From a bacterium (GTDB lineage: Bacteria > Vulcanimicrobiota > Vulcanimicrobiia > Vulcanimicrobiales > Vulcanimicrobiaceae), in the NCBI GenBank assembly GCA_021806945.1, contig JAKAPQ010000008.1, positions 1 to 35,292 on the forward strand: a stretch of 35,292 nt of DNA. The letters run 5' to 3'. The notes below the pieces were generated by a model that saw only the letters and a list, made by a program, of their open reading frames with translations, did no database searches and was not told the DNA's origin. Made by a program: the position numbers and the translations under genes. Shown in pieces: positions 6,712 through 35,263 of this stretch. Each line of letters begins with the position of its first letter. The stretch's first letter is position 1.

Positions 6712-8026
6712 ATGACGAACCCGGTGGGTGAAGCGCAAAACGGGACGCTTCGCGTAGAGTTTGACCGCCGTGTGACGTTGCAGTTCCGCGGCTCAGTTGT
6801 AACATCCGATGCGGGTCTGCTCGCCTATCGCGAACTCGATGAGGCGCTCGGTCTGAGCGCAGCGGCGGGCGATGCACTCGCCGATGCACGCACCGGCAGG
6901 AACGGTCGCCATGCGCTCGTCGGCGTGTTGCGCCAAGCAGTGTTCGGCCGCCTCGCGGGATAGGAGGATGTGAACGACGCTGAGCGCCTACGTCACGATC
7001 CAGCGATGCGCTGGATCGTCGGCGGTAACGCGGCTAAGGGCCGCGCAGCATCGCCGAGCCAGATGGGCCGGTTCGAAACGCAATGGCTCGCAGCACCTGA
7101 AAATCTCCGCACCCTCGCCGATCTCTGGAGGCCAATGGATCGACCGCGTTCGCGCGTGTCGGTCACCCCAGGAAGTCATCCTTGATATGGATGGATTCGA
7201 GCGTGAGCCCGACTCATGGCGAGCAAGAGCAAAGCGTCTGGACCGGGCATTTCGGCTGCACGTGCTATCATCCGCTCTTCGTGTTCAACCAGTTTGGCGA
7301 TCTGGAACGATGCGCGCTTCGAGCGGGCAACGTGCACAGCGCAGACGGCTGGGAGCAGGTCCTCAAGCCGGTCGTTGCGCGCTACCGAGGAACGGTGAGA
7401 CGCATCGCCTTTCGCGGTGACGCTGCCTTCGCTCAGCCGAACATGTACGAGTTCCTGGAAGCCGAAGGGATCGACTACGCGATCCGCCTTCCCGCAAACC
7501 AGGTATTACAGGAGCGCATCGGCGATCTGCTTCGGCGGCCGGTCGGACGACCGGCGCACTACGTGCAACGCTTCTATCGGAGCTTTCGCTACCAGGCCGC
7601 GAGTTGGAGCCGCCCCCGTCGGGTCGTTGCGAAGGTGGAGTGGCACCACGGGGAGTTATTCCCGCGCGTCGGCTTCCATAATAAGCGAGGCAGGTGCGAG
7701 CAATGGATAAAGGAAGGGAAGGCCGCGATCAAGTGGACTCGGCTCTCGTGCCGTTCGTTTGATGCCAACGCGGTCCGCCTTCAACTGCACGCGCTCGCGT
7801 ACAATCTTGGGAACTTCCTTCGCACGCTCGCAACGCCCGAGCCGATTCGCGGTCGCTCACGAGTTTGCGCGAGAAGCTCATCAAGATCGGCGCGAAGGTG
7901 GTCAGCCACGGCCGGTACGTTGCCTTCCAAATGGCGGAGGTCGCCATCTCCCGCAATGTGTTTGCGGACATCCTGCGGCTGGTCGCCACGTTGCGCGCGC
8001 CGCCGACTCCGGCGACGGCAATATGA
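6712..8026 (+). pseudogene. IS1380-family transposase, decayed
   Basis: The pieces together cover a nearly full-length DDE transposase. Segment 1 starts at ATG 6712 (LRVEFDRRVTLQFRGSVVTS) and is broken by TAG at 6961-6963, then continues in frame (VNDAERLRHDPAMRWIVGG). The frame shifts near 7130 and again at about 7190, where ATGG is duplicated within LDMDSS. The segment ILDMDSSVSPTHGEQE holds the catalytic region, and RIAFRGDAAFAQPNMYEFLE another. A third shift near 7850 restores the true C-terminus (LREKLIKIGAKVVSHGRYVA), ending at TGA 8024-8026. A TATAAT lies at 6672-6677. At least one nonsense and three frameshift lesions make it inactive. Confidence 0.85.
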
Positions 8027-34003: not shown

Positions 34004-34112
34004 CCTCGCCGAGGGTTGGCTCCTCGAGCGGTGAAGTCAAGAGTTCTCTAGCCGGCTAAAGGCCGTCGGCTCCAGCAGGCGGTCTCCAACTCCGCAGAAG
34101 GCGCCTCATGCA
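34004..34112 (+). pseudogene. Decayed direct copy of the tRNA-Thr locus (right border repeat)
   Basis: 34004-34045 repeats 23399-23440 (40/42). 34047-34060 keeps a D-arm relic (CTAGCCGGCTAAAG against the intact CTTAGCTGGCTAAAG). 34061-34112 repeats the tRNA 3' acceptor end with CCA (GCCGTCGGCTCCA) and the downstream flank. The 5' acceptor, anticodon arm and T-arm are missing, so no tRNA can be made. It forms the right border of the segment that begins at tRNA-Thr 23464, and its last three-plus bases include the ATG of the next gene. Confidence 0.8.
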
Positions 34113-34446
34113 ATCCGTCAAGCCCAAGTGGACCGAATCCGGACTCGTATTGGTATGCGAGCGCTGTTACAAGGAGCGCATCCCCGAGGAAGACCCGGAG
34201 AAAGCGGTCGAGATCGGCGCCTTTCATCTGCGCGAGTGGCTCAAGAAGCGCTTGAAAGAAGACGGCCACTGGGGCCGGGTGCGGGCGATCGCCACGGGCT
34301 GCATGGACGTCTGCGCGCGTCGCCGCGTCACCGTTTGCATCGTTCCGCAACGCCTGGACGAGATCGCCGAAATCCTCGTCGTAGACCCCGTCACGGAGCG
34401 TAACGCACTCTACCGGACGATCGTCGAACGGCTCGCCGGCCGTTAA
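34108..34446 (+). CDS. Small 2Fe-2S thioredoxin-like ferredoxin (DUF1636-like)
   Basis: 112 aa, AGAAGGCG shortly before the ATG. Four cysteines are arranged as CERC (about 18-21) and GCMDVC (about 64-69), with VTVCIVP just after: LVLVCERCYKERI ... ATGCMDVCARRRVTVCI. This is the pattern of thioredoxin-fold [2Fe-2S] ferredoxins and DUF1636 metal-binding proteins, with the cluster held by the two Cys pairs. The C-terminal half holds LDEIAEILV. Redox partner unknown. In the ancestral order it probably followed tRNA-Thr directly, because the repeat shared with 23527-23578 ends at its start codon. Confidence 0.75.
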   Translation: MQSVKPKWTESGLVLVCERCYKERIPEEDPEKAVEIGAFHLREWLKKRLKEDGHWGRVRAIATGCMDVCARRRVTVCIVPQRLDEIAEILVVDPVTERNALYRTIVERLAGR

Positions 34447-34450
34447 CCGA

Positions 34451-34614
34451 AGCAGGTTGCGGAAAAAGCCGCGTGCCAATATCCGCGGAGCGATTTTGGG
34501 CGATTTCGAAGCCCGAAGAAGGAGCAACGCCGTAGCGTTGTGACTGATGAGCAACGAAGAAAGCGTCCAAAATCGCCCGCGGGATTGGTGCGGGGATTTT
34601 TTCCGCAACCTGCT
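34451..34614. repeat. MITE-like 164-bp palindromic element between convergent genes
   Basis: Perfect 17-bp terminal inverted repeats: AGCAGGTTGCGGAAAAA at 34451-34467 and its complement at 34598-34614. Inside, the inverted symmetry continues imperfectly (GCGATTTTGG near 34490 and CCAAAATCGC near 34567), so the arms pair over about 60 bp. A perfect CAACGC-CGTA-GCGTTG hairpin sits near the centre (about 34529-34544). It begins 5 nt after the stop of the ferredoxin-like gene and ends within the stop codon of the sigma factor gene. No ORF is inside. It may be a non-autonomous transposable element, a bidirectional terminator or both. Confidence 0.7.
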
Positions 34615-35263
34615 AGGGCAGCTCGATCTCGGAGAGGTTCTTCTCGATCTTGCGCTTGACGCGCTGCAGAGCGTTGTCGATCGACTTTACGTGGCGGCCG
34701 AGGTCGCGGGCCATCTCCTGATAACTCTTGCCTTCGAGATACGATAGGAGTACTTGCGACTCGAGCTCCGAGAGGTTCTCCTGAATGCGCTCTTTGATAT
34801 CCTGAGAGACTTCCTGGTTGATTACGAGCTCTTCGGGATCGGAGGTCTTCTGCGAAGCCATCACGTCGAGCAGCGTTCGCTCGCTATCCTCATCGTAGAT
34901 GGGCTTGTTCAGCGAAATGTACTGGTTGAGCGGAATGTGCTTCTGCCGCGTAGCCGTCTTGATGGCCGTGATGATCTGGCGCGTGATACAGAGCTCGGCA
35001 AACGCACGGAAACTCGACAACTTGTCGGCTTTGAAATCGCGCACGGCCTTGTAGAGCCCGATCATCCCTTCTTGGATGATATCCTCGCGGTCCGCTCCGA
35101 TCAGGAAGTAGCTCTTGGCCTTGATGCGAACGAAGTTCTTGTACTTATTGAGCAGGAACTCCATCGCCAGGTCGTCGCCCGACTTCGCGATGGCAACGAG
35201 GTCCTCGTCGACCCGCTCGTGATATTCGACGCCATCCGCCGCGACGGGATGGGTTATTGCCAT
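34613..35263 (-). CDS. SigH-like (sigma-30 type) RNA polymerase sigma factor
   Basis: 216-aa group 3 sigma factor similar in length and motifs to SigH of spore-formers. Region 2: ALNKYK-like AMEFLLNKYKNFVRIKAKSY, then IGADREDIIQEGMIGLYKAV (2.2/2.3), then SSFRAFAELCITRQIITAIK (2.4). A linker carries RQKHIPLNQYISLNKPIYDE, and region 4 is LSELESQVLLSYLEGKSYQE then DLGRHVKSIDNALQRVKRKI (HTH). It lacks a separate ECF-type short linker, so it is a SigH/FliA-like rather than ECF factor. Targets unknown. Its stop codon lies within the end of the palindromic element. No promoter can be judged because only 29 nt upstream are in the window. Confidence 0.92.
   Translation of the reverse strand: MAITHPVAADGVEYHERVDEDLVAIAKSGDDLAMEFLLNKYKNFVRIKAKSYFLIGADREDIIQEGMIGLYKAVRDFKADKLSSFRAFAELCITRQIITAIKTATRQKHIPLNQYISLNKPIYDEDSERTLLDVMASQKTSDPEELVINQEVSQDIKERIQENLSELESQVLLSYLEGKSYQEMARDLGRHVKSIDNALQRVKRKIEKNLSEIELP

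Follow-up and report, generated by a model that had tools for sequence, protein, structure and literature searches.

The palindrome at positions 34451-34614 of the window (the whole 35,292-nucleotide stretch of DNA analysed here) is best read as a non-autonomous, MITE-like element that inserts at TA within YTAR sites, is mobilised in trans and carries a core hairpin serving the element's own cycle, a reading to which we assign a probability of about 0.6. The element is multicopy, polymorphic by insertion behind a sigH-like gene and flanked by TA, and its covarying core is shared across phyla. The identity of the element is strongly supported; its mechanism and its partner we infer.

Results

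A palindromic element behind a sigH-like gene

The plus strand of 34441-34624 folds at -109.2 kcal/mol, compared with a mean of -60.6 for shuffled sequences (z -11.3; 0 of 200 shuffles as good), confirming that the palindrome is real and far beyond chance. As the original prediction had stated from the letters alone, the arms pair and the terminal inverted repeats form a perfect 17-bp pair (AGCAGGTTGCGGAAAAA at 34451-34467 on the plus strand and its partner at 34598-34614 on the minus strand). No open reading frame of 60 or more amino acids is contained in the element, those running into it being mechanical. Its placement between two convergent genes likewise stands: a 112-aa open frame (34108-34446, plus strand; no Pfam or NCBIfam match at E <= 0.001) precedes it, and a sigH-like sigma factor gene of 216 aa (34613-35263, minus strand), which exceeds the cut-off of NCBIfam equivalogs, follows. 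The sigma factor scores above the cut-off of the sporulation SigH equivalogs NF006148 (358.7 bits) and TIGR02859 (337.1 bits), and the lineage bearing it is probably not Firmicutes.

The right tip had been thought to supply bases of the sigH-like stop codon, so that insertion might have altered the last residues of the protein. The stop codon, TAG on the minus strand, lies however within a CTAG at 34613-34616 that is target DNA, because the same CTAG is present without the element in G002, a relative of the same genus; the sites read ...CTGCCCTAG GCTCCTAG CATG TTAACGG in G002 and ...CTCCCGTAA GACACTCGCGG TTAACGG in G001, also of the genus. The element proper, a 160-bp palindrome of the A1 type delimited by its fold, its repeats and the element-free site of G002, therefore spans 34453-34612 on the plus strand, with TA on its right side only and GAAG as its left flank. 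SigH was found in 23 of 25 genomes (E <= 1e-60) and is 100% identical over all 216 residues in G001 and G002, neither of which has the element at this site. Since the stop codon belonged to the target and comparison of the C-termini revealed no difference, an alteration of the C-terminus by insertion is not supported. Among the 23 sigH loci (330 bases downstream, inspected by eye), only that of the window's genome (G000) carries the element, which establishes presence/absence polymorphism at one orthologous site, G000 versus G002 and G001. A single-copy terminator conserved at this place, the outcome named in advance as fatal to a mobile element, is thus not what was found: the element is multicopy and occurs at one of 23 sigH loci.

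Two further observations concern these relatives. TAGGCTCCTAG occurs three times in 78.8 kb of G002 loci, with 0.03 expected, a post hoc reading of loci that had been chosen for elements or sigH; in G002 it may be the remnant of a B-type copy (see below) after deletion between short direct repeats in the tips. In the relative G012 (locus L140), a tandem array of a different repeat, GGAGCGATGCGCAGCATCGCGTCTCGAAGGGCGC, lies immediately behind sigH.

Copies and end types in the genus and family

Searched with a 186-base query, the assembly to which the window belongs (233 contigs, a draft of 2.36 Mb) gave 42 matches at E <= 0.001: the element itself, two near-identical full-length copies (contigs C93 and C85) and other copies on either strand, many of them partial. 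The 14-base A tip CAGGTTGCGGAAAA was found in 45 places of the genome at up to 2 mismatches (9 for the reversed control), and a second end type, B (TAGGAGGCTGTCGGAGTTGAGC), in 61 places at up to 3 mismatches (0 for the control). Among 41 genomes, the window's own and 40 relatives, nine contain an element match, including all three examined from the genus. A set of 93 two-tipped copies, mostly from the window's genus with some from other genera of the family or order, comprises 28 with A ends, 63 with B or B2 ends and two B/A chimeras. The search for further copies proposed at the outset thus yielded dozens within the genome, and the label MITE-like is borne out by copies that are short, dispersed, multicopy and devoid of a transposase gene, with terminal inverted repeats, TA/YTAR flanks and polymorphism at sigH.

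The ends tend to match within a copy. In 49 B copies longer than 80 bp, a deviation from consensus shared by the two tips of a copy was counted 19 times; random re-pairing of the tips gives 2.2 on average and 8 at most. One inherited variant accounts for seven of these 19 cases and one orthologous site for two, and 12 different changes are represented. The A copies (5 against 1.1, maximum 5) and the B2 copies (2 against 0.7, maximum 2) add little. Either the arms are corrected against each other, as in hairpin-templated repair, or they are selected together.

Several copies have unusual structures. The two chimeras (L052 on G000 contig C50 and L166 on G001 contig C170) join a B left end to an A right end through the core, and recombination or template switching at the shared hairpin could account for them. 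Miniature copies of about 35-57 bp consist of the tips and a short loop and keep their TA contexts (L067, L026 and L047 on contigs C151, C41 and C200 of G000; L189 on C112 of G008). Apparently orthologous B elements differ in length, 162-163 bp against 216-217 bp, between G000 and G002 (L009/L237 and L030/L222); the change goes in both directions, a 54-bp piece with hairpins of its own coming and going inside the core. On G000 contig C197 (L171, 2027-8309), about 6 kb of DNA between inverted repeats seemingly interrupts an A1 element. By eye, this segment contains a beta-propeller-like repeat ORF in two inverted copies and a regulator ORF of the AAA/LuxR-like type; inversion-duplication or a large insertion within the loop of the element may explain the arrangement.

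The palindrome had also been proposed to serve as a bidirectional terminator. On the plus strand the pattern is present: a terminator-like stem at 34576-34594 within the right arm is followed by GATTTTTT (34576-34600 in all), the inner stem leads into T6, and three terminator-like sites compare with 0.4 expected, so that termination may be a side effect of the element. Such a role is not needed, G001 and G002 having sigH without the element. That the palindrome is nothing but a bidirectional terminator, and no mobile element, would fit this pattern and the position between convergent genes, but is barely credible: copies occur at unrelated sites, the site behind sigH is polymorphic, and B-type copies lack the outer A5/T5 runs. 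As the sole explanation, termination is refuted by the copies at unrelated sites and by the polymorphism.

Insertion sites and stop codons

TA flanks both sides of 54 of the 63 B/B2 copies and 23 of the 28 A copies, mostly as CTAG, TTAA or TTAG. In all 63 B/B2 copies the first and last bases of the element are G and C, and the commonest context has C before and G after the TAs (39/54). The 23 A copies have TA in a YTAR context on both sides; some show identical asymmetric quartets (TTAG/TTAG three times, CTAA/CTAA once), and a 4-bp duplication of YTAR is therefore possible as well as one of 2 bp. Of 43 elements from the loci found by pattern match, with limits set automatically, 23 have TA within 3 bases of each tip, 13 have it so close to one tip only and 7 to neither.

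For 85 of the 93 copies (eight were skipped for short flanks or lack of a YTAR), the element-free site was modelled, genes were taken as open frames, and one rule was applied to copies and to control YTAR sites of the same loci. By this rule 29 copies fall at stop codons, 20 between genes and 36 inside an open frame, the last class being overstated because open-frame gene calls are crude in G+C-rich DNA; the 293 control sites divide into 24, 56 and 213. Stop codons are hence favoured over intergenic positions, 29/49 for the copies against 24/80 for the controls (Fisher p 0.0016). A position rule that was looser for elements than for controls gives 51/88 against 19/79 (p 1e-5) and places 57 of 76 core-bearing copies at stop codons; we prefer the weaker result of the single rule. 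Target choice, together with selection against insertions that disrupt genes, accounts for part of the preference. With gene calls of this crude kind, 26 of 86 copies lie between convergent genes, a modest excess over 8/63 (p 0.017), and 23 of 86 lie between divergent genes.

A conserved, strand-specific hairpin at the core

The centre of the element is a hairpin of about 50 nt in which tandem G·A pairs alternate with Watson-Crick pairs, laid out as GGCGAGGCGCGANGAGGGAGC, a variable stem-loop and GTGACCGANGAGCAACGAAGCC; the sequence upstream of the 3' half is also conserved. In the window, the 5' arm GAAGAAGGAGC (34515-34525), the tandem G.A side, leads into the apical stem-loop AACGC-CGTA-GCGTT (34526-34539) and the 3' arm GTGACTGATGAGCAACGAAG (34540-34559), all on the plus strand. 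A covariance model of the core, R1, matches 74 positions at 34494-34567 (plus strand) with 74.6 bits, a score that is not independent, the window core being one of the 42 sequences behind the model; the next-best match in the window has 13.7 bits.

The loci examined hold 246 core occurrences, many overlapping, which reduce to 57 distinct cores. In 38 of these a simple rule finds the 5' arm, and its free base N pairs with the 3' partner in 35 of the 38 (G-C 14, C-G 9, A-T 8, T-A 4). After 15 near-duplicates or cores without a 5' arm had been dropped by hand, the remaining 42 were aligned. The alignment has 19 invariant and 12 nearly invariant columns, and its Watson-Crick pairs are formed in 89.7% of cells, against at most 42.2% in any slid register. 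Cells with both sides changed number 181, compared with 63.4 +- 5.6 in shuffled alignments, and none of 500 shuffles reaches this value. Of the five covariation measures, those for pairs with a double change and for further pair types do not stand out clearly from the shuffled alignments (246 and 41 of 500). By eye, the replacement of CGAGGCGCGA by CGAGG/AAGCGA is accompanied by that of GAGCAACG by GAGCGACG in five of five rows. The remaining core positions are tandem G.A/A.G, and one pair is G-U in 37 cores, A-U in four and unpaired in one, never G-C. In 39 of the 42 cores the complement folds less well than the core strand, with RNA and DNA parameters alike. Since only one of the two strands can form the G.A and G.U pairs, selection appears to act on a single-stranded form of fixed polarity.

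Apart from a tRNA in L002, which lies outside the element, nothing in 1 kb of the window and 22 loci reached the gathering score of a family in Rfam 15. A hammerhead-like reading of CTGATGAG...CGAA was rejected, the A2 type having CCGAAGA there. Literature searches with core strings, mostly outside subscription journals, returned only papers that seem unrelated, judged by title and opening of the abstract; those on cross-phylum palindromic repeats, tandem GA motifs and MITEs of Eremiobacterota gave nothing describing such an element among the matches listed.

Distribution of the core across phyla

One genome from each of 84,980 species was scanned with the pattern of the 3' half, GTGACYGANGAGCRACGAAG, which matched at least 108 stretches, some by chance and without a 5' arm (L329 from Cellulomonas and L348 from Acidiferrales, for example). 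Among the matches listed, the core is present in records titled as seven phyla: Eremiobacterota (as Candidatus Eremiobacterota), Verrucomicrobia, Myxococcota (Myxococcales and relatives), Elusimicrobia, Planctomycetes (Planctomycetota), Bacteroidetes (Phaeodactylibacter, Chitinophagales) and Alphaproteobacteria (Sphingopyxis, Aureimonas, Qipengyuania). The ends of the window's element recur in records titled Candidatus Eremiobacterota. Elements of the other groups have ends of their own, mostly in CTAG or TTA contexts (e.g. CTAGTGCTGCGTAAAC, CTAGGCCGTGTTTTCA, TTAGACTATGTTGGGA and AGGGCCCGATCAGGAA), and lengths mostly near 97, 160-170 or 270 bp. A centre that recurs while the ends change from genome to genome hints at a common function.

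The covariance model was run on 16 genomes, 13 of them chosen as core bearers; the resulting counts are lower bounds and say nothing of prevalence, 150 candidates having been scored per genome and the genomes having been picked by the 3' pattern. Eleven of the 13 genomes reached through core-bearing loci hold at least 9 to 94 copies, and the other two at least 1 and 2. The counts are at least 94 in a Myxococcales MAG, 77 and 39 in Verrucomicrobia, 62 in a Chitinophagales MAG, 55 in G002, 41 in a Nannocystineae MAG, 31 and 28 in Elusimicrobia, 28 in Phaeodactylibacter xiamenensis KD52, 26 in a Planctomycetota MAG, 16 in a Bacteroidetes record, 9 in Aureimonas sp. ME7, 2 in an Akkermansia-titled MAG and 1 in Sphingopyxis. 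One weak match was obtained in G007 and none in G010, a one-contig relative. Viral contigs gave one match to the 3' arm pattern, without 5' arm or hairpin, and none to the 5' arm; plasmids, searched with two elements, and phages, searched with that of the window, gave no match.

Most core bearers are MAGs and GA-rich motifs could recur, and the cross-phylum core might accordingly reflect misbinned contigs or convergence instead of one family. We regard this as scarcely probable: P. xiamenensis KD52 and Aureimonas sp. ME7, neither of them titled as a MAG, hold their copies with ends of their own, and the invariant and nearly invariant columns and the covariation also speak against it.

Orientation to genes

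If the core worked at mRNA 3' ends, it should stand in sense orientation behind genes. In a first set of 76 core-bearing copies, a same-strand gene ends at the 5' tip alone in 21 cases and an opposite-strand gene at the 3' tip alone in 24; both arrangements occur together in 12 and neither in 19. The 43 elements sampled from the pattern-match loci, some of them in the window's genus, favour the sense orientation by 19 to 6 (two both, 16 neither), and nine genomes of other groups yield 11 against 11 with 35 neither, for 57 of 80 stretches, the other 23 lacking a recognised core, limits or sufficient flanks. There is no consistent orientation bias across the three samples.

These counts bear on the possibility that the core benefits the host as an RNA module, forming a hairpin that stabilises or terminates transcripts at mRNA 3' ends, and that different TA-targeting MITEs have captured it repeatedly because it makes their insertions tolerable or useful. 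The preference for stop codons over control sites, the modest excess between convergent genes, the strong RNA fold of the core, the sense bias of the one sample and the effect of ERIC on mRNA decay in Yersinia (PMC2229807) all speak for such a module; the two unbiased samples, the element-free sigH sites of same-genus relatives and the copies between divergent genes speak against it, and on balance we consider it unlikely. Because the orientation bias is inconsistent, a role of the core in the element's own cycle would be more likely than one in host mRNA.

Candidates for the mobilising enzyme

Matches to PF13358 (IS630-type) number four in G000, one in G002 and none in G001, which is nevertheless full of elements. 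No pairs of A, B or B2 ends were detected around the PF13358 loci of G000 and G002 or around the PF01609 (DDE_Tnp_1) loci of three of five genomes, and five of 21 transposase loci show weak, one-sided tip-like matches without pairs. A degenerate tip pattern found no IS-sized pairs in four other genomes. The autonomous IS with matching termini that the original prediction had proposed to look for was thus not found in the loci examined, an absence that is not final in draft genomes, where IS copies may be lost, decayed or unassembled; since the ends were found on no autonomous IS, we term the element MITE-like. The link to IS630 derives from target choice, the PF13358 loci being without these ends and G001 without PF13358. 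The window itself contains a transposase-like gene, a PF01609 match at 7173-7808 (plus strand; E 1.4e-23; locus L247) within a 362-aa open frame, with element ends absent nearby.

Three candidates for an autonomous partner were dismissed. At L066, B tips at an IS-like distance enclose ordinary-looking ORFs and the second tip is weak; on contig C51, one long ORF includes the first B tip in its coding frame and has the other behind it; and no transposase was recognised by eye in the 6-kb segment within the split A1 copy on C197.

A strand-specific hairpin would also suit an element of the REPIN/RAYT kind, in which a Y1 transposase mobilises the hairpin in single-stranded form, and Y1_Tnp is present in nine of 24 genomes searched. 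It was, however, not found in seven of eight element-bearing genomes of the window's family (G000, G001, G003, G008, G013, G019 and G020), nor in G047 and G048 with their 26 and 94 copies, and a Y1 transposase was on these grounds rejected as the general partner. Both core strands occur on single contigs (e.g. C9 of G002), and the elements have long terminal repeats and TA flanks, which are not known as REP features. We hold this mode of movement to be very improbable.

Discussion

The evidence points to a mobile element that inserts at TA within YTAR sites (CTAG, TTAA, TTAG), which are often stop codons in this G+C-rich genome; duplication of the TA upon insertion at a stop codon would leave the stop intact. 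A TA-specific DDE transposase acting in trans, IS630/Tc1-like to judge by the target, might move the elements. Their ends vary between families and genomes and tend to stay symmetrical within a copy, the central hairpin on its fixed strand being common to all. In the element's own cycle, the core could act as a single-stranded hairpin, of DNA or RNA, bound by a shared putative factor.

Among the closest known systems is the enterobacterial MITE ERIC (IRU, RU-1), a TA-flanked palindrome of 127 bp without a known transposase (PMC2229807, PMC10969869, PMC2759123). It shares with the present elements a small palindromic intergenic form, TA ends and target duplication (PMC2229807). Its centre, GGAGC-TTAC..GTAA-GTGACTG...GAGCG, resembles the apical part of the core, but its ends are different and, by eye, CCCC/GGGG replaces the second tandem G.A block. 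The core model scores 12.0 bits at the ERIC centre of one locus, the best value in that 1-kb locus; as 50 kb of E. coli DNA, taken as a control, contains two matches scoring at least 15 bits, the kinship is a lead and suggestive only.

YPAL (RU-2) of Yersinia, palindromic and at about 168 bp of similar length, reportedly lies close behind stop codons (De Gregorio 2006). It differs in having no TA termini, target duplications of 3-26 bp and internal repeats (PMC2229807). MITEs of the IS630/Tc1-mariner group, such as RUP of pneumococcus, share the TA target duplication, and IS630 prefers TA in CTAG (Tenzen and Ohtsubo 1991, as cited in PMC2170065). In contrast, the IS630-type loci of G000 and G002 are without the ends of our elements, and G001 has none. 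RUP itself is not known to have a core in common with MITEs of other species. REPINs resemble the elements as dispersed, hairpin-forming repeats; they differ in that no Y1 transposase was found in most bearers of the window's family, and in the long terminal inverted repeats and TA flanks seen here.

We tentatively propose, at somewhat less than even odds, that these elements belong to a previously unrecognised superfamily of mobile palindromes that crosses phyla and is defined by a strand-specific 'G.A zipper' hairpin; this would be recognised in single-stranded form by a conserved putative factor, the ends would be freely replaced, and ERIC may be a divergent enterobacterial branch. Because the core hairpin crosses phyla, a point missed in the original prediction, the finding is worth more than was held there. 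MITEs are normally recognised by ends copied from an IS, with the middle irrelevant, whereas in the present elements it is the middle that stays constant, across seven phyla, and the ends that change, and the covariation points to selection on a folded single strand. The question of what moves ERIC-like palindromes would thereby become testable, with the core as bait or as a model for finding the autonomous partner. For annotators, one covariance model may capture repeats present in up to dozens of copies in many genomes that have received little study.
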